Below, piece after piece: positions 40,449 through 53,127 of a DNA stretch of 64,000 nt (the stretch's first letter is position 1; each line of letters opens with the position of its first letter). Made by a program: the position numbers and the translations under genes. Source of the DNA: Bdellovibrionia bacterium (GTDB lineage: Bacteria > Bdellovibrionota > Bdellovibrionia > Bdellovibrionales > JAGQZY01); contig JAUICP010000001.1 in assembly GCA_030427805.1 (NCBI GenBank), forward strand, positions 186,001 to 250,000, given 5' to 3'. Under the pieces are notes generated by a model that did no database searches, had not been told where the DNA came from, and worked only from the letters and a program-made list of their open reading frames with translations.

Positions 40449-41489
40449 ATGAAGTGGGTTTTAGTTTTAATCATGATGATTAGCTTTAGTTGGATAGATG
40501 GAGTTTCCGCCCAGCTCGATCCTAGCTCGACATTACTCCTGGACTCTGGTCGAGACAACCCCGATAACACTGGCCTCGATACCGGCAGATACAAAGTTCG
40601 AAAAAGAAAAGAAGAGTTTAAGGACCCTTTAAGTATCCAAACAGAAAAGAAATCGCCCAAAGAGGAAAATGTCAAAAAAATCGATCCCCCGGTGACTGAA
40701 AAGATCGAGGTCCCGAAGGTTGAGGAAAAACCCGCACCAAAAACTGTTGAGACCTCAATAGAGCCTGAATCAGACGCAGAAGTTAGCAAGCTAGAAATTA
40801 TGAGAATCGGAATCAGCCCGTTCTTTTTTTACAAGGACTCTTCAAGTCTTTCACTTTATCGATCCTATAACTTGAGTGCTCCTGGTATAAGGGGCTTTGT
40901 TGATATATGGCTGACCCCTCAGTTTGGGGTTTATACCGATATTTCAATGTCCTTGGGCGCGAGTGTCACTGGTGCATTGAATTCGAGCCGACAAAGCTAT
41001 CTTGAGCACCAATGGTTTGATACTGGATTCATGTATCGACAAAACTTTTCATTGGGTCGTAGAATTGAGTTTCGCTTGAGTTATCTTGAGGCCGAGGAAA
41101 AGGTTTCATCAGCGGATACTTTCAGAGCGGGTCTGCGAACTTCAGGAGTTAAACTCGGTGCGCGGTTTTTCTTACAAAAAGAAAAGGGGAGTCAGTGGTT
41201 TGTTGAAACCTGGCTCTCGCCATCGCAAAGTCATAAAGAAAAAGAGACGGGAATCAATATTAAATCAGGCGATAAAGGCGAGACTAATACACTCGGTTTA
41301 TCAATTGGTAAGCTCTATGAACTGGATTCGAGTAATGAGTTTTATTGGGGCTTGCGATCTGTTTTTGAAAAGAATCGCTTTAAAAATGATTCTAGTCCTG
41401 CGGATCCCCTGAGATCCTCGACCTTTGAGAACCTCGAAGTTAATCAATCTTCGATCTTTGTCGAGTTCGGCTATAATTGGAGTCGATAA
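40449..41489 (+). CDS. outer-membrane barrel with charged Pro/Lys/Glu linker
   Basis: 346 residues. Signal peptide (about 1-21), then a linker of about 90 residues rich in Lys, Glu and Pro (EKIEVPKVEEKPAPKTVE) that could span peptidoglycan, and a barrel-like domain (about 115-346) ending VEFGYNWSR. Divergent from and apparently related to the outer-membrane gene at 38776. It is 28 nt upstream of a CheY-like gene that has its own promoter. Confidence 0.6.
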   Translation: MKWVLVLIMMISFSWIDGVSAQLDPSSTLLLDSGRDNPDNTGLDTGRYKVRKRKEEFKDPLSIQTEKKSPKEENVKKIDPPVTEKIEVPKVEEKPAPKTVETSIEPESDAEVSKLEIMRIGISPFFFYKDSSSLSLYRSYNLSAPGIRGFVDIWLTPQFGVYTDISMSLGASVTGALNSSRQSYLEHQWFDTGFMYRQNFSLGRRIEFRLSYLEAEEKVSSADTFRAGLRTSGVKLGARFFLQKEKGSQWFVETWLSPSQSHKEKETGINIKSGDKGETNTLGLSIGKLYELDSSNEFYWGLRSVFEKNRFKNDSSPADPLRSSTFENLEVNQSSIFVEFGYNWSR

Positions 41490-41511
41490 TAGCCTCCTTC
41501 GATCCTATAAT
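41483..41511 (+). promoter_or_regulatory. promoter of the CheY-like gene
   Basis: TCGATA (41483-41488), 17-nt spacer, perfect TATAAT (41506-41511). The ATG follows 6 nt later, so the transcript is probably leaderless. Confidence 0.6.
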
Positions 41512-41517
41512 AGAACA

Positions 41518-41904
41518 ATGAAAATAATGATCGTCGACGACGCCCCATTTATGCTGGAAATCCAAAGAACAATCCTCGAGTCCGCTGGCTATAAGGTTAT
41601 TGCCGAGGCCGTAAATGGAAAAGATGCGGTTGGGTTAGCTCTTCGTACAAGGCCTGATGTCATATTAATGGACATCGTAATGCCTGAAAAGTCGGGAGTA
41701 GACGCAGCTAGAGAAATTCTCGAGAAGTTGCCAAAGACCAAAATTATTGCGATTTCTACTTTGGACCAAGAGTCTATGGTGCTAAAAGCTTTAGACGCCG
41801 GATGTAAGAGTTATGTGGTAAAGCCATTTGAGAAAGCTGAGCTACTCAGTGCAATCGATCAGCTTTTGGATAAGAACCAACCAGTGGAGACAGCATATGA
41901 GTGA
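41518..41904 (+). CDS. CheY-like single-domain response regulator
   Basis: 128 residues from ATG 41518. All receiver residues are present: Asp pair in IMIVDDAP, phosphoacceptor Asp in VILMDIVMPEKSG, Thr/Ser in IISISTLD-like IIAISTLD, and Lys in YVVKPFEK. No output domain, so it acts by protein contact, perhaps on motility or as a phosphorelay member. Overlaps the next gene by 8 nt (ATGAGTGA), indicating coupled translation. Confidence 0.9.
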   Translation: MKIMIVDDAPFMLEIQRTILESAGYKVIAEAVNGKDAVGLALRTRPDVILMDIVMPEKSGVDAAREILEKLPKTKIIAISTLDQESMVLKALDAGCKSYVVKPFEKAELLSAIDQLLDKNQPVETAYE

Positions 41905-42343
41905 TATTTTATTTTTTATTAAAATAATTATATTAACCTCGGTCTTTACCATCCTCATGCAAATTAAAATCGGTGAAACGACACTCGAGCAAAAAACTGA
42001 AGTGATGATTAAAGAAAGTTACTTTGGCCAAACCATGGTTGAAGTGGCCCAGGGGGCAATTCATGCCCTGAGAGACATCTATAAGTCGGTTCTCGATAAT
42101 GTTGATTCACAAGTCACAAAAGAATTCGATCAAAAAAATATTCCTGGTCACCGAAGTTTTGGTGTGGAAATCAAAAGAAGTAAGGAGTTTTTGCAAGATC
42201 AATTGAAGCGCGGAAAGGAAGTCGCAGAAGAAAAAGCGAAAGCCGCGATCAAAAAGGTCAAAGAAAACCCAGAGATCGTAAAAGAAAAAGCTCAAGCCGT
42301 TAAGTCTAAGGCTACTGAGATTTATGAAAGCCTAGAAGAGTAA
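41897..42343 (+). CDS. membrane-anchored coiled-coil protein
   Basis: 148 residues. One N-terminal membrane helix (about 5-23), then long charged amphipathic helices; the last 60 residues (RGKEVAEEKAKAAIKKVKENPEIVKEKAQ) resemble apolipoprotein/LEA-type repeats. Translationally coupled to the CheY-like gene, so it may be its partner or target at the membrane (inference). No family recognised. Confidence 0.55.
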   Translation: MSDILFFIKIIILTSVFTILMQIKIGETTLEQKTEVMIKESYFGQTMVEVAQGAIHALRDIYKSVLDNVDSQVTKEFDQKNIPGHRSFGVEIKRSKEFLQDQLKRGKEVAEEKAKAAIKKVKENPEIVKEKAQAVKSKATEIYESLEE

Positions 42344-42392
42344 GTTAAGAGAACGTACTTAAAACGATCAATATCTCTTATTCACTCTAATA

Positions 42393-42680
42393 TTATATAT
42401 CTGTGATAGTTGTTCTAGTGCTTCCAGTTTCTAAGGTAGCCGCGGCAGTTTGGATGCGCTCAAGTTTGTGGTTACAATTAATCGCTCCAGCATCATGCCA
42501 TTCACGTCTATCGCTCATTGAGATGCCCGCTCTTTTCATGATTCGATCACAAGCAGGGCTCATCACCATAGATGGATCTGAACATCGCGTGAGGTTACTA
42601 TTTGGTACAGCAGAAGCTACTGAGCTAAGGCCGCAAGAAGCTATGAACCCTAGTGCTAGGGCAAGTTTAGTTGCTTTCAT
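42393..42680 (-). CDS. small secreted cysteine-containing protein
   Basis: 95 residues, AGGAGG before the ATG. Signal peptide of about 24 residues (ending VASAV). The mature 71 residues contain three Cys (TRCSD, PACDR, INCNH) and a basic middle (RIMKRAGISMSDRREWHDAG). Location downstream of the Tad operon on the same strand, but separated by a likely terminator and 330 nt, suggests its own promoter. Function unknown. Confidence 0.6.
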   Translation of the reverse strand: MKATKLALALGFIASCGLSSVASAVPNSNLTRCSDPSMVMSPACDRIMKRAGISMSDRREWHDAGAINCNHKLERIQTAAATLETGSTRTTITDI

Positions 42681-43011
42681 GTAAGTCCTCCTATGTATTC
42701 GTCTTACACCAAGTACTTTTGCGATGAATATGCCAAGTGACTCACATTGAGACAGTTTGAATAGGTCAATTATTTTAGATACTTAAGAGAGAGGGTGTCT
42801 GGAGGAGTGACAGAGAAAAGTGTCTCAAAACGGAACATAGTCAGTCACTGTATAAAGTCTAAACAAGTGTTAGATATTGAATGGGCTCACCGGAACTTAC
42901 CCTTTAATAAATGAAATCAATTTCACGGAGTAATTTTAGGTAGTTATCAGACTCTTTTCGGTAAACTTTGGTGAAAATACTGAAAATCTCGGCGACAATT
43001 TAGGCCGCCGA
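42681..43011. other. 331-nt intergenic region
   Basis: No gene seen on either strand. It holds a hairpin after the hit-like gene (42990-43010), a distant pair TTGAGACA / TGTCTCAA (about 42747 and 42820), and must contain the promoter of the small Cys protein. Confidence 0.4.
42981..43010 (-). terminator. probable terminator of the Tad operon
   Basis: On the minus strand CGGCG, 11-nt loop, CGCCG, then AGATTTTC; it begins right after the stop of the last gene. T-tract is weak. Confidence 0.5.
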
Positions 43012-43362
43012 TTAGGTCTCCGTATCGACATCACCCGTGGTCGTTGCATTTCCATCTGGAGTGATTGGAGCGCTGTCATATAGACTTCCACCAGCGGCGT
43101 GATTTGAGCACACATCGCCATCGCAGATACAATTGGGATCATCTGCTGCGTTATCAGGAGAACATGAGTTAAGGGGTGCGGAGCTTAATCCTATGGTGCC
43201 GGCATCGGGATCGGCAAAATACCCATCCGATTGAACCATAGCTGGGTCTTCAAGGTTTATTTCTCCCTGTTCGAACGGATCTTCTTCTGCAAATGCAGAG
43301 TGAGTGAAACCAAGGCTGAATAAAAAACTGAGTAAGAAAATCCACCTAATTTTATTTTTCAT
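43012..43362 (-). CDS. small secreted, probably disordered protein; hit-locus (Bd0108)-like position
   Basis: 116 residues from ATG 43362. Signal peptide of about 25 residues (ending SAFAEE). The mature part is acidic, poor in hydrophobics and rich in Asp, Gly, Ser and Asn (EDPFEQGEINLEDPAMVQ), with four Cys in a short stretch (NSCSPDN, NCICDGDVCS). It lies 16 nt after an RHS protein gene at the end of the Tad operon. In B. bacteriovorus the disordered Bd0108 and its partner Bd0109 lie beside the flp genes; synteny, not sequence, is the basis here. Confidence 0.6.
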   Translation of the reverse strand: MKNKIRWIFLLSFLFSLGFTHSAFAEEDPFEQGEINLEDPAMVQSDGYFADPDAGTIGLSSAPLNSCSPDNAADDPNCICDGDVCSNHAAGGSLYDSAPITPDGNATTTGDVDTET

Positions 43363-43378
43363 CACATCTCCCATAAAG

Positions 43379-45028
43379 CTAGAGGCTCAATTCATTGGTT
43401 GCCGGTGAAATAACATCGAGCAAGTTGTTAAATGTCGATGCCACCTGTACCGCTACGGTGGTGCCTTCTTTGCTTTCTACCTTCTTTATCTCTCCATTGG
43501 GTTTATAAGAAACCCTAATGCTTCCTAAATTCGGTCGTGTGATAATGGAGGGTTTACCAAATCGTTCTTCGTATTTAATTCTAACCTCTTTTTTCGCCTG
43601 ATCAATGATGGCGGCAATTCGCCCACGAATATCATATTTCAGACGCACCTTTTGGCCTTCAGTATTTTCGGCGAGAATAAGATTGGCCTTTTTGTCGTAC
43701 TTAAATTTAGTGACCATCTTTTTTGAGACCTTACCTTTATTGTTGTAAACCTCAGTGGTGACCTCAGAGACTTTCTTATATTTATTTCGGTACTTAAAAT
43801 AAAGTGCTGAGAAGCGAGTTGCCTTGGTCTTTACGAGGCCGTTGGCATAGTAACTAAAGGTTGTCGTCTGTCCATTTTTTCTGATAGAGACTGGCTTACC
43901 AAAGACTTCGTGGTAAACAACATCGAGAGATTCTTTTTTGTTTTTAGTAGCTACGCGAGCGAGATACTTACGACCATCTTTTCGCTTTTTATGCCAGAAT
44001 TCATGCTCGGCTTGGTTGACGACCTTCCCCTTACACTTTTTAACGGCCTTTGATGTGTAGTGGTTCTTAGGGTCATCCGAGGACGGCAGATAGCTGTAGC
44101 TTTCTGTACATCCATTTCGATCTTTAAAGCTCATAACCCAATCTCTTTTTTGATCATAGGTGAGGGCTTTAAAGGTTTTGTCTGGATAGGCAATCTTAGT
44201 GAGATTGTGTACAGAATCATAATCGTAGCCGTAGACGTTGCCCCAGGCATTGCGCACCTTGATCAAATCTTCTGATTTAAAGCGGTATTGGACTTTCAAA
44301 TTATTCGGACCGCTAATAGATTTAACTTTTTTATTGGGGAAGAACTCGAAGCTTAAGCGTCGACCCTTGTCGTCTACAACCTGAGTGATCACTCCGCCGG
44401 CGTAGTTGATCTGAATAAAATTACGATTCTTATCGTAAATAGCAATTAAGCGGCCTTTAGTATCAAAGCGCTGCATAGTATTGTCGGGTAAATATCGATC
44501 GTAGTGCTTTCCTTTGAAATCAATTCTTTCTACTTCGCGTCCGTTGGCGTAGTAAACCGCACCCGTCGTATTTTTCTTTAGAGAGATGCCTACATCTTTG
44601 GCCCAAATTGATCTCAATTCTGTGTCTTCGATGAGTTGTCCCCGCAGCGTGCTGAGGTATTTAGAGGATGCACTGGGGTTTTTCTTTTTAACTCTAGAAA
44701 TAATATCATCAACTGTTTTACTCACGGTATCCGTATCGAAGCTCTGTGGATAGTAGATGATTTTCATACCACCACCACACTCGGTAAGTTCTAAGTTTCC
44801 TTCGGCAGTGGTTTCGAGCTCCGTTTCGAAGTCAGAACACCAACCGAAGCCAAAAATACCGTTAAACAAAGACCTACTATTATAGGTTCTTTGAATTCTT
44901 AAATCAAAGCCAGAGCCCGGAACGATTAAATCCAGCCAGGTATCTGCATAGTTGGCATTTTTCATATCAACAACTGCGGAAGCAGTAGATGAGATGATAA
45001 AAATGATAAAAACTAAAAAACGCCGCAT
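43379..45028 (-). CDS. secreted RHS/YD-repeat protein of the Tad operon
   Basis: 549 residues. Signal peptide of 18 residues. N-terminal DUF6531-like module (LDLIVPGSGFDLRIQRTYNSRSLFNGIFGFGWCS) and about a dozen YD-type repeats (RFDTKGRLIAIYDKNRN, YDSVHNLTKIAYPD, FKYDKKANLILAENTEGQ, YDIRGRIAAIIDQ). No RHS core with a toxin tail follows; the end is short, so this is not a polymorphic toxin. Its place between TadB and a small secreted protein fits Bd0109 of the hit locus. Probably a periplasmic or surface pilus accessory. Confidence 0.75.
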   Translation of the reverse strand: MRRFLVFIIFIISSTASAVVDMKNANYADTWLDLIVPGSGFDLRIQRTYNSRSLFNGIFGFGWCSDFETELETTAEGNLELTECGGGMKIIYYPQSFDTDTVSKTVDDIISRVKKKNPSASSKYLSTLRGQLIEDTELRSIWAKDVGISLKKNTTGAVYYANGREVERIDFKGKHYDRYLPDNTMQRFDTKGRLIAIYDKNRNFIQINYAGGVITQVVDDKGRRLSFEFFPNKKVKSISGPNNLKVQYRFKSEDLIKVRNAWGNVYGYDYDSVHNLTKIAYPDKTFKALTYDQKRDWVMSFKDRNGCTESYSYLPSSDDPKNHYTSKAVKKCKGKVVNQAEHEFWHKKRKDGRKYLARVATKNKKESLDVVYHEVFGKPVSIRKNGQTTTFSYYANGLVKTKATRFSALYFKYRNKYKKVSEVTTEVYNNKGKVSKKMVTKFKYDKKANLILAENTEGQKVRLKYDIRGRIAAIIDQAKKEVRIKYEERFGKPSIITRPNLGSIRVSYKPNGEIKKVESKEGTTVAVQVASTFNNLLDVISPATNELSL

Positions 45029-45047
45029 TGACTCTCCTCTAAAGAGC

Positions 45048-45917
45048 TTAAACCTGTATCTTTATAATTTTACGCATTAATAGGCCTCCAGTCACCTGAA
45101 GACCAAGCATTATCATTAAAGCTAGCCATCCTAAGGGCTTTGTAAAAAGTGGAAGAACAAAGTTAGGGTCCACTACATAAAATACAATTAATAATAGAAA
45201 CGGGACTAAAGTAATAATCACAGCTTGAGTAACACCCTGGGCAGTGAGTGCCTCAATCTTTTTCTCGATCTTTTGTCGTTCTCTAACGGTGTATTGAATG
45301 GTCTGAAAGGTTTCAGCCATATTACCACCAGTTTCTTTTAAAATATTTACAGAGGTAACGAACATTTGAACATCGGCTCGTGGAATGCGCTCGCCCAAAT
45401 CCGACAGGGCTTCTTCGACGGTGCGTCCAAGCTGGACCTCAGAGAGTACTAGGCGAAACTCCTGTGAAATGGGAGCAGACATATTAGCTACGACCCTCTC
45501 CATACTCTGTGTGATACTAAGCCCAGACCGAATTCCGTTTGCCATAATAGTCATGGCATCGACCATCTGATTAGTAAAGGCATCACAGCGTTTTTCGTAA
45601 AGACCGTTAACAATGTGTTTGGGTATGGTCCAACCGAGGACCGTAATTACGCAAAAAACCGGAATGCTAAACCAAAGATTTGGCCAAAATAAAAAGAAGA
45701 AGAGCGCGCCAAAACCAAAACTAGTTAAGAGTAAGGCCCAAGTAATTTTTTTGCGCTCAATCTTTACGAACATGAGATCGAGCTTATTAATAATTTCCTC
45801 TCGAGATCCCAAGCTTTTTTCTGAAAGCCAATGAATCAAACGATCTGCATTTAAATAAGCAATCGTAAATATGGCGATTCCTAGAAGTGGAAAGACGACA
45901 AACTCACTTGAAAACAC
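45048..45917 (-). CDS. tadB: Tad pilus inner-membrane platform protein TadB
   Basis: 289 residues, GTG start sharing one base with the previous stop. T2SS-F domain: QMVDAMTIMANGIRSGLSITQSMERV and LSDLGERIPRADVQMFVTSVNILKETGGNMAETF, with membrane helices near the start (about 57-90) and end (about 225-285). It anchors the ATPase and pilus subunits in the inner membrane. Only one F-domain protein is seen; a TadC is absent from the window. Confidence 0.9.
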   Translation of the reverse strand: MFSSEFVVFPLLGIAIFTIAYLNADRLIHWLSEKSLGSREEIINKLDLMFVKIERKKITWALLLTSFGFGALFFFLFWPNLWFSIPVFCVITVLGWTIPKHIVNGLYEKRCDAFTNQMVDAMTIMANGIRSGLSITQSMERVVANMSAPISQEFRLVLSEVQLGRTVEEALSDLGERIPRADVQMFVTSVNILKETGGNMAETFQTIQYTVRERQKIEKKIEALTAQGVTQAVIITLVPFLLLIVFYVVDPNFVLPLFTKPLGWLALMIMLGLQVTGGLLMRKIIKIQV

Positions 45918-48196
45918 TATTGACCTCCCGCTTTCTTAACCGACTGTTGAGGTTTTTGCGCGTTAGGAGCGGCATTTGGCTTCTGTCCTGTGGCGGGTCT
46001 TCTCGGCACTCCGGGGCCAGGTCGTTTTTTAACCTGTTGCTGAGGAGCTTGTTTTTCATTTGAAAAAAGAGTTTTGGGAATAATAATCCCTTTGGCCTCA
46101 AATTTTTCAATGAACTTGGGAATAAGACCCGTGGCCTGAAACTCTCCAATAATTTTTCTATTTTTATCAAAGCCTTTTTCAACAAAGCGAAAGACTTCTT
46201 GTAGGGTGACTGTCTCGCCCTGCATGCCTTGAACTTCGGTAATACTTAAAAGGCGTCGACTACCGTCTGAGAGCCGTGAAATCTGCACAATGAGATCCAC
46301 AGCACTCGCAATTTGTTCTTTAATAGCATATTCGGGAAGACTGACACCTGCTTGCATACATAGGTTAATGAGTCGACCAATACACTCCCTCGGATTGTTA
46401 GAGTGAACTGTCGTCATGGATCCGTCATGACCCGTGTTCATAGCCGCCAACATATCAAGGGCAGCCCCATCTCGACACTCTCCAACAACAATTCGATCAG
46501 GTCGCATACGAAGGCTGTTTTTAATTAAGTCCCTAATAGACACCGCACCAGTTCCCTCCATGTTGGCAGGTCTGGTTTCGAGCCGAACGACGTGTTCCTG
46601 TCGCAACTGTAATTCTGCCGCATCCTCGACGGTAATAACCCGTTCGGAAGAGGGAATAAATGAGCTTAAACAGTTAAGAAGAGTCGTTTTACCAGAGCCT
46701 GTACCACCGGAGATAACGACATTGAGTCCGTTTTCGCAACAGATTCTCATGAAGTCCATCATCGATTTAGAGGCCGAGTTATATTGAAGATATTGTTCGA
46801 CTCCGAACTCATCTTTTCTAAATTTACGAATAGTCAGTGCGGGCCCATCGATTGAAAGGGGCTCAATAATAGCATTCACCCTTGATCCATCAACAAGACG
46901 AGCATCCACATAGGGTGTTTTCTCATCGATTCGTCGACCAAGAGGCGTCACAATCCGTTCAATGACGTTTCTGAGTTGAACGTTTGAAGTAAATTTAATC
47001 TTACTTAAATTAATGCGACCACTTTTTTCATAAAATATTTTTTCGTGACCGTTGACCATGATTTCCGAAACGGCATCATCAGCTAAAAGGTCTTCGAGGG
47101 GTCCAAGACCGAGGGCCTCGTCCAAAATTTCTTGGATAACCTGTCGCCTTTCAGAGGCTTGCATTCCGGGCGATTCTGAATCCACGATTTTTGATATCTG
47201 CATTCGAACGTCATTTCGAAGCTTTTCTTCCATAGAGGGATCGTTTTTAGCTTTGGTTATATCGTCATTTTTAAGGTTCATGGCCTTAATGAGTTGCTTA
47301 TGTGTCACTAACTTCAACTGAGTTCGCGCATCGATTTCTTTAACAGCGCCGAAGATATTATTACCTGAATTATTACTAGGCGTTGCGCTAGAACTGCTCT
47401 CATCTTTTTTAAGTTTCTTTGGTTTTTTAAGTTGCTTTGATCTTTGGAGAATTCCACCGGAGAGCTTTCGCACGACCTCGTGATGACCTGCAGCTATCGG
47501 TGTTTTTTGTGCGGCAATAACCAGGGGTATAGAGCGCTGCAAACAGGCGCCAGCGGTATTGTCATCCTGAGGGATCACTCCAACCACTTCTTTTTTCATG
47601 TTTTGGCCGATAGCCTGAGGCGAGAGACCTTGGTTGTTCGCTCGATTAACAACAACCTTAATCATTTCCCCGGGAATAAGTGCACCCATTAGCTTGTTAG
47701 TCATTTTCACCGATTGTGTGACGGCTAGTACCTCAGGGGTGGTGACCATCAATACAATGTCGGCTTTTTCGAGAAATTCCATTTGTATATCGCCGGCCTT
47801 ACAGCCGAGATCGATGACAATGTATTTATAGATATTCGACAGGGCATCGAGTGTTTTACTCAGTAGTCCAGTGTTCAATGTGAATTTTTCTACAGGGCTC
47901 TTAACAGCCGCTAAAAAGTGAAGCGGAATTTGTTGATGTTTAGAAACTACAGAATTAATCGTTTGGGCGTTGATTGTGCCTGTGAATTTTGTCGCTTCAT
48001 CCAAAGTTTTTGGATTCTTAAAGCCTGTAATGATATTTTGATCACCACAACTATCAGAGTCACCGTCAATGAGTAGGGTGGGTGACCTTAGTTCAATAGC
48101 AGTAGCGAAGGCGAGGTTCGCCGCAAAAACGGATTTTCCGACTCCGCCCTTACCACCTATTACGCAGATTATTGAACAATTTGGATTTAATGCCAC
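45917..48196 (-). CDS. tadA: TadZ-TadA fusion: ParA-like localisation domain plus pilus ATPase
   Basis: 759 residues, GTG start. Residues 1-260 are a MinD/ParA-type domain with GGKGGVGKS and IVIDLG (TadZ/CpaE-like). After a Ser/Lys linker (about 255-290), residues 300-700 are a CpaF/TadA secretion ATPase: EIMVNG, SGGTGSGKTTLLN, VEDAAELQL, the Asp-box RPDRIVVGECRDGAALDML and the His-box MTTVHSNNP. A Pro/Gln/Lys-rich tail ends it. In most bacteria these are separate genes. Powers Flp pilus assembly and probably localises it. Confidence 0.93.
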   Translation of the reverse strand: MALNPNCSIICVIGGKGGVGKSVFAANLAFATAIELRSPTLLIDGDSDSCGDQNIITGFKNPKTLDEATKFTGTINAQTINSVVSKHQQIPLHFLAAVKSPVEKFTLNTGLLSKTLDALSNIYKYIVIDLGCKAGDIQMEFLEKADIVLMVTTPEVLAVTQSVKMTNKLMGALIPGEMIKVVVNRANNQGLSPQAIGQNMKKEVVGVIPQDDNTAGACLQRSIPLVIAAQKTPIAAGHHEVVRKLSGGILQRSKQLKKPKKLKKDESSSSATPSNNSGNNIFGAVKEIDARTQLKLVTHKQLIKAMNLKNDDITKAKNDPSMEEKLRNDVRMQISKIVDSESPGMQASERRQVIQEILDEALGLGPLEDLLADDAVSEIMVNGHEKIFYEKSGRINLSKIKFTSNVQLRNVIERIVTPLGRRIDEKTPYVDARLVDGSRVNAIIEPLSIDGPALTIRKFRKDEFGVEQYLQYNSASKSMMDFMRICCENGLNVVISGGTGSGKTTLLNCLSSFIPSSERVITVEDAAELQLRQEHVVRLETRPANMEGTGAVSIRDLIKNSLRMRPDRIVVGECRDGAALDMLAAMNTGHDGSMTTVHSNNPRECIGRLINLCMQAGVSLPEYAIKEQIASAVDLIVQISRLSDGSRRLLSITEVQGMQGETVTLQEVFRFVEKGFDKNRKIIGEFQATGLIPKFIEKFEAKGIIIPKTLFSNEKQAPQQQVKKRPGPGVPRRPATGQKPNAAPNAQKPQQSVKKAGGQ

Positions 48197-48217
48197 ACTC
48201 TCGCCCTGTTAAATTCC

Positions 48218-49720
48218 CTAGTCTCTTAACCTAAACTTCCTCTTAATTTTTTCAGATCCAGCACTCGCTGAAGACTTAATTATTGGAGTAATAAAAACCA
48301 CAAATTGAGTCTGATTTCTCTGAAATGCTTTCGAGGCGTATAGAGAGATCAAGGGGTTTGAACTTACATTTTTAGGCAATCTATTGAAATCAGTCGTCGA
48401 AGTATTCGATACCAATCCACCAATAGCTGCGCTTTGTCCACTTCTCACAGTAATTACTGTGTTCACTTTGTTTTCTGACACCAATGGACCGGCGTTAGAA
48501 ATACCTAATAAGCTTTTTACTGAAAAATCAGTCGTTAACTGAATACTATCTGAACGCGGGTTAACTATTTGTGGAGTCACGGTAGAAGTAATACCAGTGG
48601 TCTCGAAGTTAGTACCCGCCTGTCCATTCGAACCAATAATCGAATAAGGGACCTTAACTGTTGATCGGATGTCTCCTTTTTGCCCATCTTGTACAATCAT
48701 ACTTGAAGACTGAAGCACGCGGGCATGCCCATGGGATTTAGCCCAATTCAACTTTGGCAAAAGATTCGAAACGATACCAGTGATTGTTGAAATAACTCCA
48801 CCAGGTGATCTCGAGTCATTAGAAAATTGAATTTCGGTATTATCCTGAATGTCAGGTGTCCATTGAAACCGAAAAGCACGTTCATAATCTTTTTTGAGCT
48901 CAACATAATGCACTACCAATTGAATCGTCTTACCTGGTGGTGCTGCAGGGGCCGGCTTAATCGTAATAAGATTAATTACGGCATCGACCTTACGCTTTTT
49001 GAGAACGCCCTCTGCTTCGGCGCTCTCAACGACAATGTCTGGAACATAGGTTTTAGCGATGATTTCAGCTCGATCCCGAGCGTTCTTATCAGACACTGAT
49101 CCTTCTAGGATAAACTTGTCGTTAACAGCGCGTACGTTGACCTCAGGGTTATTGATATCTCTTTCAATAAATTCGGCTATTTTCTTTTGAGCGAGTGGGC
49201 TCAGTTCGACAAGAGTATCAGCTAAGTCACCAAATTGTTTTATAACCGCGTATATCCGGTTCATATCTTTAGGAAGCAATACTTTACCGTCGACGACAAC
49301 TTTGTTGTTTACGATCTTAATTGTAATCCCGTCGATATCACTCAGGAGAGCTCGCATCTCGCGAACAACTTTTGTTAGATTAGACTTCTTAACGTCAAGT
49401 CGTATTTCGTAGATTTTTTGTTGGTTTTTATCTTTTACTATTAGTGTTGCGACACCGACTTTTCGTGGAGTGATACGCAAGACATTCATTTTTTTTGCAA
49501 CGGATAGCCTAATTACATTTCTAAAGTCGCCACCAAAATTAACTCCTGGAGGAATGTACTCCAACTTCTCATCGTGGGAGATACCGATGTATAAAGGTAT
49601 GAAGCGTTTTGCCTTTACCACGCGACTACGATCTGTTTCTCCCTGAGCCAATGCCGACTCAAAAGGAAAAAGAGCTAATAATAGGCAAAGTCCAATGCTT
49701 AAATTAATTAACTTCTTCAA
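48218..49720 (-). CDS. rcpA: Tad secretin RcpA/CpaC
   Basis: 500 residues, TTG start with AAGGGG upstream, overlapping rcpC by 17 nt. Signal peptide (about 1-25). N-terminal pilus-secretin domain with YIGISHDEKLEYIPPG, two BON-like repeats (about 140-235), and the secretin core with PYSIIGSNG, TSTVTPQIV and VRSGQSAAIGGLV. It forms the outer-membrane pore of the pilus machine. The end (KIKRKFRLRD) is basic and short. Confidence 0.92.
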   Translation of the reverse strand: MKKLINLSIGLCLLLALFPFESALAQGETDRSRVVKAKRFIPLYIGISHDEKLEYIPPGVNFGGDFRNVIRLSVAKKMNVLRITPRKVGVATLIVKDKNQQKIYEIRLDVKKSNLTKVVREMRALLSDIDGITIKIVNNKVVVDGKVLLPKDMNRIYAVIKQFGDLADTLVELSPLAQKKIAEFIERDINNPEVNVRAVNDKFILEGSVSDKNARDRAEIIAKTYVPDIVVESAEAEGVLKKRKVDAVINLITIKPAPAAPPGKTIQLVVHYVELKKDYERAFRFQWTPDIQDNTEIQFSNDSRSPGGVISTITGIVSNLLPKLNWAKSHGHARVLQSSSMIVQDGQKGDIRSTVKVPYSIIGSNGQAGTNFETTGITSTVTPQIVNPRSDSIQLTTDFSVKSLLGISNAGPLVSENKVNTVITVRSGQSAAIGGLVSNTSTTDFNRLPKNVSSNPLISLYASKAFQRNQTQFVVFITPIIKSSASAGSEKIKRKFRLRD

Positions 49721-50585
49721 AAGGACCCCTTCTCCTCGGTTTTCTAACCTTAGGTTTGGCTACCGGCTGCTTCGGCCTCACTATAGGCCTTGGAGCTACA
49801 GCTGGCTTTCGTCGCATACGTCCTAGAACATCGTTAATTGAAGCTGTCTTTAGTGGTTTGATAATTCGATCACTTGAATTTCTTAGAGTAATAAACAAAC
49901 CACCTGGTGTTGTGGATAATATATAAACTAATTCCTGAACCTCTTCGGGCTCGGCTTCTATGGTTAGATCGTTATAATTGACATCCATGCGCAAATTCTT
50001 AATGTTGATCTGCCCATCTTCTTCTTCGTCGTAGACAACGGGTATTTGGTTAGCGATTCGCTGTCCCGTAGCTAAAACAACAACATCTTGCATGAGAGTT
50101 CTTACTTCGCGCTTCTTGTTGGCGCCGGCACCAACATCGAGAGCAGCAACAATGTCTATGCGATCGCCTGGTTTGATGAGCTTAGAAACCCCTCTTACTG
50201 AATCAACCGGTATAGTGACCGCTCTTTTTCCGGGCGTCACCTCCATTGAAAGTCCAGTCAGGTTTCCAGGCTTAAGAAGCTTTGTTCCCAAAATTTGTTC
50301 ACCTTCTTCGATCGGTGCCGCTGCAAGCTTGCCAATAACTTCTTCTGGGTTCTGAATGGCTTTGGGCTCGATGAAATCAACGGGTCTTTCGATGACATCG
50401 ATATCAGAGTCCAAAATTGGCGCCATTTCTTTAATCGGCCTTTTAGCAACCACAACTTGTTCAGAAGATCCGTACTTTTTGTGTAGTTCGGCTCTTTGTT
50501 CCTGTGACCAGCTATAGAGTAAGAACACAGCAAAAATTCCTGTGATCAGTGATATCCATAATGTTCTAGATTCGTTTCCGTTCAT
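49704..50585 (-). CDS. rcpC: Tad pilus assembly protein RcpC/CpaB
   Basis: 293 residues. N-terminal membrane helix (about 8-26), then an SAF/antifreeze-like domain (VVVAKRPIKEMAPI, IGKLAAAPIEEGEQI) and the RcpC/CpaB domain (GKRAVTIPVDSVRGVSKLIKPGDRIDIV). A Pro/Arg/Lys-rich tail (about 255-290) may contact peptidoglycan or the secretin. Periplasmic assembly component, adjacent to rcpA as usual. Confidence 0.92.
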   Translation of the reverse strand: MNGNESRTLWISLITGIFAVFLLYSWSQEQRAELHKKYGSSEQVVVAKRPIKEMAPILDSDIDVIERPVDFIEPKAIQNPEEVIGKLAAAPIEEGEQILGTKLLKPGNLTGLSMEVTPGKRAVTIPVDSVRGVSKLIKPGDRIDIVAALDVGAGANKKREVRTLMQDVVVLATGQRIANQIPVVYDEEEDGQINIKNLRMDVNYNDLTIEAEPEEVQELVYILSTTPGGLFITLRNSSDRIIKPLKTASINDVLGRMRRKPAVAPRPIVRPKQPVAKPKVRKPRRRGPFEEVN

Positions 50586-50588
50586 ACC

Positions 50589-51074
50589 TTAATCCCCACA
50601 CTCTGCACTTAAGCAAATGCCATAGCTCACCATGATCCAGGCAGGACTCGTCGATGTTGTTCCGTTACGAGCACCCTCGCTGATATTGTAAATTTGATTG
50701 TTGTGAATGGTGGCATTGGTACGACCCTCATCCGCGACGGTCATCCCTATAGCAAGTTGGCGTTCAGTAGCAACCGATCCCTGTGCGTTTGATCCTGCTG
50801 CATTTATTCCATGAATTCTATTGTTCGAAGTAAAGTAATGGGTTGATCTACGAAATCGATTTTCTCTAAAAAAATGGAGATTGGATCTGTGTCTGAAGGT
50901 TTCGAAGGCGTAGGTTCGAGCGGCGATAGAATTTAGTATGCCGGTTTGGATAATTCCATAGAAACCAAACGCATGAGAGATAAGAACAAGAAAGCAAATA
51001 AGGAGAGGTATAGCTTCAAGAGTAGCCATTCCTTCTTCATTTTTATCAATGTTCAAATTTCTATTCTCATTCAT
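50589..51074 (-). CDS. TadE/TadF-like minor pilin
   Basis: 161 residues. Short charged leader, then NEEGMATLEAIPLLICFLVLISHAFGFYG: a prepilin-type hydrophobic helix with Glu at position 5 after the likely cleavage at Gly-Met. The mature part is Asn/Arg/Ser-rich, with a Cys pair at the end (GICLSAECGD). Three genes of this type are consecutive, probably forming a pseudopilin tip or priming complex. Confidence 0.75.
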   Translation of the reverse strand: MNENRNLNIDKNEEGMATLEAIPLLICFLVLISHAFGFYGIIQTGILNSIAARTYAFETFRHRSNLHFFRENRFRRSTHYFTSNNRIHGINAAGSNAQGSVATERQLAIGMTVADEGRTNATIHNNQIYNISEGARNGTTSTSPAWIMVSYGICLSAECGD

Positions 51075-51077
51075 ACT

Positions 51078-51683
51078 TTAACAACCATTATCAAAAATTA
51101 TTACTGCATTTTGGACCTGCCCCTGATTGTAGACACTGTCCAAATTTTTAATTGCATTAAATCTATTGTTATAAAACTCTTGGCGACACTCTTCTCGTGT
51201 CGGCTCACGCGCCAAGTAAGAAGCTAATGTCGCAGTAAAACTATCTTCTTCATCTGTCGTGACTCCAAAGAAGGGGATGCGCAATTCTAATATTTTCGCC
51301 GTGAAGTCGATTCGTGTTCCCCAAAAAGTGGCTGAGTCACCGTAGTTTTGTCGGGGATCAGTTGATTGTGGATAGAGATCATTGTGGTCTCCGATTTGAG
51401 GATCACCAATCTCGTACCATTCATTTTCAAAAAGCGGAGCAATAGCTGGGTTAGCAATCAGTTCACTATGTTTTGTTTGAGCCTCTTGAGTCTGTGAGTC
51501 CTGGGAGATGTGCCCGGCAAAGTAGTTCCTTGCAGAGGCATAACTGATGTATTGAACGACGTAGGAAACAGAAAGAGTGAGGCAAATTGTAAATAAGACC
51601 GCGATAAAGCCAAACACGAGCACAGAAGAGAATATGAAATCCAAGGTCAGGATTCCTGATTCATCTTCGTTTAAATGTTTCAC
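51078..51683 (-). CDS. TadE-like minor pilin, larger
   Basis: 201 residues, GTG start. Leader DESGILTLDFIFSSVLVFGFIAVLFTICLTL is a prepilin helix, with Asp in place of the usual Glu at position 5. The remaining 150 residues are acidic and aromatic, with two Cys near the end (EECRQE, DNGC) that may pair. Two nt separate... it precedes the previous entry by three bases, so one transcript. Assigned by position and helix type. Confidence 0.7.
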   Translation of the reverse strand: MKHLNEDESGILTLDFIFSSVLVFGFIAVLFTICLTLSVSYVVQYISYASARNYFAGHISQDSQTQEAQTKHSELIANPAIAPLFENEWYEIGDPQIGDHNDLYPQSTDPRQNYGDSATFWGTRIDFTAKILELRIPFFGVTTDEEDSFTATLASYLAREPTREECRQEFYNNRFNAIKNLDSVYNQGQVQNAVIIFDNGC

Positions 51684-51719
51684 AGCTTTTAAGGTTTTAA
51701 TTACAAACTCCTTTAAGCT

Positions 51720-51977
51720 TCACAAACTTTCACCAATGGGCGAACCATGGCGGTTAATTAAATTAGGGTGTTTGGTCTTAGAATCGTTGGGTGGCTCCCA
51801 AACACCATTCTCCATCATTCCGGCAATGTGATCCCATGGTCCCGAAACAATCTTTGCCACAAGTTTTTCGTCTTGGAAGTAATCAGAAACGATGATGGTC
51901 GCGCCAAAGAAGAGAACTAGAAACAAGACTGCTTCTAAAGTCATTTGCCCCTTCTCATTTCGAACCGATTGCATCAT
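51720..51977 (-). CDS. TadE-like short pseudopilin
   Basis: 85 residues from ATG 51977 (ATGATG overlaps the tadV stop). NEKGQMTLEAVLFLVLFFGATIIVSDYF is a prepilin leader and helix with Glu at +5. The mature part is only about 70 residues (KIVSGPWDHIAGMMENGVW). Processed presumably by the adjacent TadV. Confidence 0.75.
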   Translation of the reverse strand: MMQSVRNEKGQMTLEAVLFLVLFFGATIIVSDYFQDEKLVAKIVSGPWDHIAGMMENGVWEPPNDSKTKHPNLINRHGSPIGESL

Positions 51978-52474
51978 GCAACTACTCCAAACGAAACATA
52001 AGTAAACCAACCGAGAAGAAGGGCCACTGTATAAGGAATTTTGAGCACTCCTTCTCTATCTATCTTTTCGACATTTTTGCCGCGTAACTTTCTAAAAATA
52101 TTAAAAAAATTCCCCGAAATTACAGATTTTACAATTCCGAAGGCTGCTCCCCAAAATATCGACAGTACAAAGACCTGAAAGGCTGTATTCCAATCTGTAG
52201 CTAGACCAAAAGCCATATAAAGCTTCATGTCTCCAGCGCCAAAAAATCCAATGAGGACAAATGGAAGAAAACAAGCAAGAGCACAGAGCATTCCTAAAAG
52301 TGAATAGGGAAGAGCTGAAAAGCCCTTTACGACTAGTACAAAGACCAGGGCTACACTGAGGCAGGTTAGGAATAGCCAGTTGTGGACCTTCTGTGTACGA
52401 AGGTCATCGATCATTCCGGCTACTAAAATGAAGCTTGGTATAAAGTAGGCTAAGCCAATGGCCCAGGAACTCAT
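51974..52474 (-). CDS. tadV: prepilin peptidase TadV/CpaA
   Basis: 166 residues from ATG 52474 (ATGA overlap with the preceding gene). An aspartic membrane peptidase: first Asp pair in VAGMIDDLRTQKVHNW, second in IGFFGAGDMKLYMAFGL (GxGD). Five or six membrane helices and no N-methylase domain, as in TadV. Cleaves Flp and TadE-type leaders. Confidence 0.92.
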   Translation of the reverse strand: MSSWAIGLAYFIPSFILVAGMIDDLRTQKVHNWLFLTCLSVALVFVLVVKGFSALPYSLLGMLCALACFLPFVLIGFFGAGDMKLYMAFGLATDWNTAFQVFVLSIFWGAAFGIVKSVISGNFFNIFRKLRGKNVEKIDREGVLKIPYTVALLLGWFTYVSFGVVA

Positions 52475-52695
52475 AATGTCCCTGTAGGGGCTCCTCCGCT
52501 CGGTCGAATCCATCGCACTTTTTGCTGGCTAATCGGTTCGACAAAACCTCGACCAGTAACGATGTGAGCTTCAACTCTTGCCCCCAATCTTGGGGCGGAA
52601 TTAAAGAAAATCTGCTGAGGCCCTCGCTCGCCTAGGAAGGCTCCAATCATTAAGTATGCAAAGATGCCGAGAAGTAGAGTTACTTCAACTGTCAT
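52471..52695 (-). CDS. small membrane protein of the Tad operon
   Basis: 74 residues. N-terminal hydrophobic helix (TVEVTLLLGIFAYLMIGAFLG) then a short basic/proline domain (RWIRPSGGAPTGTL). No prepilin glutamate signature follows a glycine, so it is probably a small accessory rather than a pilin. Located between the pilin and the peptidase genes. Confidence 0.55.
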   Translation of the reverse strand: MTVEVTLLLGIFAYLMIGAFLGERGPQQIFFNSAPRLGARVEAHIVTGRGFVEPISQQKVRWIRPSGGAPTGTL

Positions 52696-52769
52696 AACAA
52701 CCCTCTAAATTTAACTATATCGAAACTTTGTCTCTACTATCGATTGCACAGTAGAGACCCCGTGCTTGA

Positions 52770-52946
52770 TTAGTTTCCGAAACCGCCGACTTTACTTGAT
52801 AAGTCACTGATCTTGTCACTAATAACTTTTTCGAATTGTTCGCGGAAAAGCATCGCCACGCCAACGATAACAACAAGGATTAAAATGTACTCAGTTGCAC
52901 CTTGAGCTGACTCGTCTTTCCAAAGTTTTTTAAAAGTTTCTTTCAT
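52770..52946 (-). CDS. flp: Flp-type major pilin
   Basis: 58 residues from ATG 52946. Classic Flp: charged leader ending ESAQG, then ATEYILILVVIVGVAMLF with Glu-Tyr at +3/+4 after the Gly-Ala cleavage, and a short polar tail (KISDLSSKVGGFGN). First gene of the operon, with a 180-nt upstream region that must carry the main promoter. Builds the thin adhesive Tad pilus. Confidence 0.93.
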   Translation of the reverse strand: MKETFKKLWKDESAQGATEYILILVVIVGVAMLFREQFEKVISDKISDLSSKVGGFGN

Positions 52947-53127
52947 TGTATACCCCCATAAATAGTATTCGGTAAATGCCACAAAAAGCATGAGGTTTGA
53001 GGTTTCCCTCGGTTAAACAAACAATAACTATACTTTTTAAGAACTAGAACAGACGTCAGCGAGATGTGTTCTTTGATACTTTAATAATATCACTTGGAAC
53101 GGCTTATTCAAAAATTAAAAGGATTTT

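Follow-up and report, generated by a model that had tools for sequence, protein, structure and literature searches.

Gene content of the window

The window, a stretch of 64,000 nucleotides of Bdellovibrionia DNA, holds a Tad pilus operon on its minus strand. The original prediction placed genes for a secreted RHS/YD-repeat protein and a 116-residue secreted protein last in this operon, and both open reading frames were indeed found there, with the Tad genes upstream. It also let the locus end at position 43012. This boundary had to be moved, as a third small secreted gene and its promoter follow at 42393-42753. The features of the locus, in window coordinates, are as follows.

41518-41904 (+), CheY-like response regulator, Bd0102 equivalent (Pfam Response_reg, 8.7e-29, and gene order)
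41897-42343 (+), Bd0103 homologue, small, convergent, with an N-terminal hydrophobic stretch (phmmer, 3e-7 to HD100 96125-96385)
42393-42680 (-), P2, 95 aa, the second of the small secreted proteins, corresponding in position to the ORF within the hit-locus "sRNA" of HD100
42720-42735 (-), predicted sigma54-type promoter TGGCATATTCATCGCA for P2, -24/-12 (score 16.4; a sigma54 factor is encoded in the genome)
42739-42753 (-), palindrome GTCTCAATGTGAGTC, one mismatch to GTCTCAnnnTGAGAC, candidate regulator-binding site
43012-43362 (-), P1, small secreted protein in the Bd0108 position, 116 aa (position, signal peptide, cysteines, charge-hydropathy)
43379-45028 (-), RHS gene, Bd0109 orthologue, 549 aa, secreted, RHS/YD-repeat, no toxin tip
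45048-45917 (-), TadB/TadC-type T2SSF protein, Bd0110 equivalent (Pfam and HD100 order)
45917-48196 (-), CpaE-like domain fused to TadA/CpaF ATPase, Bd0111 equivalent (domains and HD100 order)
48218-49720 (-), secretin RcpA/CpaC, Bd0112 equivalent (Pfam and HD100 order)
49704-50585 (-), CpaB/RcpC, Bd0113 equivalent (HD100 order)
50589-51683 (-), two genes of TadE/minor-pilin type, Bd0114 region (HD100 matches in the same order; no Pfam match)
51974-52513 (-), prepilin peptidase, TadV type, Peptidase_A24 (Pfam, 8.6e-14; no counterpart in the HD100 operon)
52770-52991 (-), Flp pilin (Pfam Flp1_like, 1e-9, and HD100 order)

The main genes from 40449 to 52991 have counterparts by sequence in Bdellovibrio bacteriovorus HD100, arranged and oriented alike, the exceptions being P1, P2 and the prepilin peptidase. 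The genome taken as HD100 agrees with the published residues C56, E58 and C59 of Bd0108 and with the published sRNA primers. TadV has been published as absent from Bdellovibrio. The HD100 operon, which has no prepilin peptidase, agrees with this absence, and the lineage of the window thus keeps a TadV-type gene. In HD100 as well as in the window, a single protein combines the CpaE-like and TadA ATPase domains.

The RHS protein and the identity of the locus

The RHS protein aligned with HD100 Bd0109 over its full length (52% identity, 551 columns, 605 bits), and Bd0109 was its sole match in the HD100 genome. It carries a signal peptide, the Pfam domains DUF6531 and RHS_repeat, and four cysteines at positions 64, 84, 307 and 332; a signal-like N-terminus was seen in the alignment of the Bd0109 family. 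Judged by its sequence, the protein is the Bd0109 orthologue of this lineage. An orthologue was found in 59 of 60 relatives; across the phylum, 183 of the 192 genomes sampled contain a member of the family. Some relatives of Bd0109 came from records labelled Streptomyces griseus (L057), Roseovarius aestuarii (L108) and Alphaproteobacteria (L104), which are possibly mislabelled or contaminated.

The AlphaFold model of the RHS protein is a confident YD-repeat structure (pLDDT 87), and its Foldseek matches were Rhs effector cores, teneurins and TcC shells, with the cores of type VI secretion system (T6SS) Rhs proteins the closest. The YD-repeat fold and DUF6531 are held in common with T6SS Rhs effectors, TcC and teneurins; unlike these, the window protein is short (549 aa), Sec-exported and without a C-terminal toxin domain. 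The presence of RHS repeats, the closeness of the fold to T6SS Rhs cores and the small gene directly behind the RHS gene might point to an Rhs toxin followed by its immunity protein. We rejected this reading because the C-terminus is conserved between families and no variable toxin tip is present. The small protein is moreover exported and disorder-like, Bd0109 itself has a signal peptide, and the synteny with the Tad genes is stable across the order, all of which makes a toxin-immunity pair highly improbable.

In the window, the bd0109-bd0108 pair stands at the end of the tad/flp operon, convergent with the genes for Bd0103 and CheY. The genome of the window, assigned to the same taxonomic order as HD100 and to a different family, shares the gene arrangement and orientation of the HD100 hit locus (bd0108-bd0109 and flp/tad bd0110-bd0119) from the CheY and Bd0103 genes through Flp. 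As in HD100, a cysteine-containing, disorder-like small secreted protein is followed by a second small secreted ORF with a sigma54 promoter and a palindrome. The window differs from HD100 in its P1 (116 aa, four cysteines, strongly negative net charge, not alignable), in a P2 of 95 aa and in the inclusion of the prepilin peptidase gene in the operon. This synteny and the orthology of Bd0109 bear out the proposal of a hit-locus equivalent in another lineage: by gene order, the locus is the orthologous Bdellovibrionales hit locus, found outside the Bdellovibrio family, and not a new system. By homology, it would act as a host-interaction switch in this lineage as well.

Linkage of the RHS gene to TadC was observed in 103 of the 105 loci of the order, and in 19 of 20 genomes sampled elsewhere in the phylum. 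The original prediction was to fall if neither protein were related to Bd0108/Bd0109 and the pair were not linked to tad genes; the orthology of Bd0109 and the 103 linked loci leave it standing in this respect.

A small secreted protein in the position of Bd0108

The best start of P1 is the ATG at 43362 behind a GGGAG (the listed ORF reaches 43374). It lies 17 nt past the bd0109 stop codon in the same orientation, the Bd0108 position being defined as within about 20 nt. P1 has a net charge of about -20 and is predicted to fall on the disordered side of the charge-hydropathy boundary (hydropathy 0.44, charge -0.21). Comparison with a sibling genome gave 15 synonymous and 5 non-synonymous changes (dN/dS 0.08), indicating purifying selection.

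Across the order, 91 of 101 loci have a signal-bearing small ORF behind the RHS gene; among shuffles, 42 of 1010 did (4.2%). With a stricter screen (≥60 aa and ≥2 cysteines), the counts were 87/101 and 13/1010 (1.3%). The 101 are the order-level loci with room to show P1, and some of the ten misses hold a P1 just outside the filter. In one species (L146), the P1 frame chosen by the screen is short (65 aa) and cysteine-free, with an unrelated-looking tail, and is possibly a frameshifted copy.

The number of P1 cysteines past the signal is mostly even (2 in 63, 4 in 19, 6 in 2 and 0 in 3; n=91), which fits disulfides such as the C56-C59 bond in the CxxC of Bd0108 (PMC4267844). CxxC is present in 45 of the 91 relatives. 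This pattern was not found in the window P1, where the four cysteines are spaced as CxC and C-x4-C. The motif NCICDGDVC(S) had been put forward as a new element. The family typically carries its cysteines in pairs, with two or four cysteines in 82 of the 91 relatives and a CxxC in Bd0108 itself, so that the four cysteines of the window P1 represent one common form and NCICDGDVC is better described as a variant.

No sequence similarity to Bd0108 was detected for the small protein: BLASTP of the window P1 against Bd0108 gave no alignment, and a Bd0108-type profile scored 2.5 bits, a level reached by 9% of shuffled decoys. These two results, together with a cysteine pattern of CxC...CxxxxC and not CxxC, would be explained if another small secreted protein, not homologous to Bd0108, occupied the same slot. 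However, the slot itself, the start distance, the size, the signal peptide, the even cysteines and the low-complexity mature part are all as in Bd0108. In addition, among the 72 P1 proteins from outside the core Bdellovibrio set, 20 exceeded the 99% decoy level of the same profile, and a loss of similarity over distance is thus to be expected. We consider non-homology unlikely. The window P1, lacking sequence similarity to Bd0108, is called here its positional and functional-type equivalent on the basis of position and properties; its homology is not regarded as proven.

A second small secreted gene in the place of the hit-locus sRNA

Past P1, a further signal-bearing gene, P2, was recovered in 75 of 98 loci, with a median length of 68 aa and a median distance of 516 nt past the bd0109 stop; in the other 23 the screen did not find it. 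Exactly one cysteine past residue 18 is present in 70 of the 75 proteins, and at 66 of 67 loci the P2 protein is more basic than the P1 protein. The genes have an AGGAG ribosome site in 77% and an ATG start in 99% of cases. Between HD100 and its close relative G028, P2 differs by 12 synonymous changes and 1 non-synonymous change, distributed over the three codon positions as 1/0/12, and the other measurable pairs, from several genera, gave dN/dS values of 0.04-0.21. With this codon constraint, P2 is, on sequence grounds, a protein-coding gene under purifying selection and an overlooked third part of the hit locus. In several Bdellovibrio species (L144, L145, L148 and L150), P2 is apparently duplicated, a second signal-bearing, single-cysteine ORF lying ~440-460 nt further on.

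In HD100, the P2 ORF (96483-96683, minus strand) lies inside a "small non-coding RNA" published for the hit locus (96455-96716), which is raised in bd0108 mutants (PMC3818213), and both published RT-PCR primers for this RNA fall within the ORF. A hypothetical gene at the same place, BD_RS00505, is mentioned in one paper (PMC5941755). The sRNA and BD_RS00505 share with P2 the location between bd0108 and bd0103, and the inner ORF is on the bd0108 strand. The RNA was taken there to be non-coding (PMC3818213), whereas we read it as the mRNA, from a sigma54 promoter, of a conserved secreted protein. Our literature search found no paper that ties the P2 gene to the hit-locus sRNA. Passages of a 2023 paper on wastewater Bdellovibrionales describe small signal-peptide genes that form arrays close to homologues of Bd0103 and Bd0109 (PMC10469934) and have the genomic place and protein type of P1 and P2; those passages do not separate P1 from P2 and do not describe the promoter, the palindrome, the cysteine parity or the shared motif.

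On our reading, the RNA that rises in HD100 bd0108 mutants would be the P2 mRNA, with at most an additional role as a regulatory sRNA. As first proposed from its rise in those mutants (PMC3818213), the transcript could still be a regulatory RNA, with the ORF incidental or a second function. The strong codon constraint on P2 in several genera and the frequency of ribosome sites and ATG starts argue against this, as does the search of the intergenic regions for known RNA families, in which no Rfam match exceeded the threshold; we regard a regulatory RNA as quite unlikely.

Promoter and palindrome upstream of P2

Sigma54 promoters were recognised by GG and GC at -24/-12 in the context TGGCAC-N5-TTGCA, both of which are seen in the element before the window P2. 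A score of at least 16 at 35-95 nt before the P2 ATG was obtained for 59 of 71 loci, compared with 0.2% of shuffles and with 0/71 for the control region upstream of bd0109. A sigma54 gene was found in each of the five genomes tested, that of the window included. In HD100, the promoter is TGGCACACGCGATGCA; it implies a start near 96732, not far from the sRNA end that had been set by hand at 96716. The corresponding start in the window is predicted near 42709. With its own sigma54 promoter, P2 would be regulated apart from the Tad operon.

The 15-bp palindrome GTCTCAnnnTGAGAC occurs with 0-1 mismatch in the P1-P2 gap of 40 of 68 loci and in 0 of 340 shuffles; symmetric variants (GTCTAA..TTAGAC, GTATCA..TGATAC) also occur. 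Perfect copies of GTCTCAnnnTGAGAC number 25 in HD100 and 7 in the genome of the window, and a reversed-pattern control gave 0. The HD100 sites are mostly intergenic and often precede genes for exported proteins. One of them precedes, by ~200 bp, a fliA-like sigma factor gene.

We considered an operator shared with pilA, as would be expected of one PilR-type activator, and discarded it: the 420 nt upstream of HD100 pilA (the best type IVa pilin match being taken as pilA) contain neither the palindrome nor a sigma54 site. Most of the HD100 palindromes likewise come without a sigma54 promoter. The palindrome therefore need not be the site of a sigma54 activator.

A short motif common to P1 and P2

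De novo motif learning, run with cysteines excluded, returned from P2 alone a motif of about [GS][LM]F[AD][NK]TNP. The P2-learned motif exceeded the 99% decoy level in 11 of 80 P1 proteins (p=3e-7) and the P1-learned motif did so in 13 of 63 P2 proteins (p=1e-8), p-values that are optimistic since the sequences are related and not independent. For P1 (GSLYDSAP) and P2 of the window, the match was not significant.

The best match in Bd0108 is RRHDDTVS at residues 73-80, inside the 73-86 deletion that leads to host-independent growth and longer pili (PMC4267844). The motif places a conserved element where the classical 42-bp deletion falls. This deletion arises between direct repeats, so its frequency is no proof of a role of the motif. 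By NMR, the main contact of Bd0108 with Bd0109 is at residues 24-66, off the motif, which may therefore serve another partner.

A possible link between pilus state and growth

A long-standing question in Bdellovibrio is how the status of the pilus is translated into a choice of predatory or free growth. Bd0108 binds Bd0109 weakly, and its loss or shortening alters the pili and frees growth (PMC3818213, PMC4267844). The reading that we favour, and consider reasonably probable, is that of a hit-locus orthologue in which a Tad operon ending in Bd0109 and P1, followed by a sigma54-driven P2, couples pilus state to the growth decision. Bd0109 would be the periplasmic YD-repeat protein that links the two. 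P1, made together with the pilus machinery, would bind Bd0109 weakly and keep the cell in the predatory programme, and P2 would be induced via sigma54 upon a change in pilus or P1 status and compete with or relieve P1. The features that relate P2 to P1 (a signal peptide, one free cysteine, a motif like L-x-D-N-T-N-P and opposite charge) would suit an output or counter-player of the switch. Against this reading, P1 and P2 of the window do not align with the HD100 proteins, and the shared motif is not significant there. The NMR contact away from the motif, the 23 of 98 loci in which the screen missed P2, and three genomes of the window's own family that have neither small gene also speak against it.

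Alternatively, the RHS and small proteins might serve the structure or assembly of the Tad pilus, for instance as a tip or wall-anchoring adhesin with secreted accessory peptides, and have no lifestyle role outside Bdellovibrio. This would agree with the TadC linkage (103/105 in the order, 19/20 elsewhere in the phylum), which is seen in mostly uncultured lineages, with the flp pilins being required for predation and dispensable for axenic growth (PMC5430801), and with the failure, in every growth mode, to obtain a strain deleted for bd0109 (PMC3818213). It would account less well for the host-independent growth caused by bd0108 mutations in HD100, for P1 and P2 being disorder-like and fast evolving, unlike pilus subunits, and for a P2 regulated from its own promoter. 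A purely pilus-related function therefore appears somewhat unlikely to us.

A more specific proposal can be made, which we advance tentatively. A three-protein device might operate across the Bdellovibrionales, in which Bd0109 is served by two antagonistic, disordered secreted proteins with a common short binding motif: P1, acidic, with paired cysteines and made with the pilus, and P2, basic, with one free cysteine and under sigma54. The "sRNA" would be the P2 mRNA, and the release of bd0108 mutants from predatory arrest would involve the P1:P2 balance at a common partner.

The hit locus itself is of a known kind; what is new is P2 with its sigma54 promoter and, often, the palindrome. Reading the hit-locus sRNA as a sigma54-driven mRNA directs attention to which activator, trigger and partner are involved. 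The presence of the same locus across the order provides natural variants for comparison, including genera of the window's own family that do without both small genes. In three genomes from such genera (L162, L163 and L164), P1 and P2 have both been lost and the rest of the locus is kept, bd0109 running straight into the Bd0103 gene. Outside the order, RHS-TadC pairs (L121-L123, L137-L140) are often trailed by one or two small exported cysteine-containing proteins, and the cassette of RHS, TadC and small protein may thus be older than the Bdellovibrionales.
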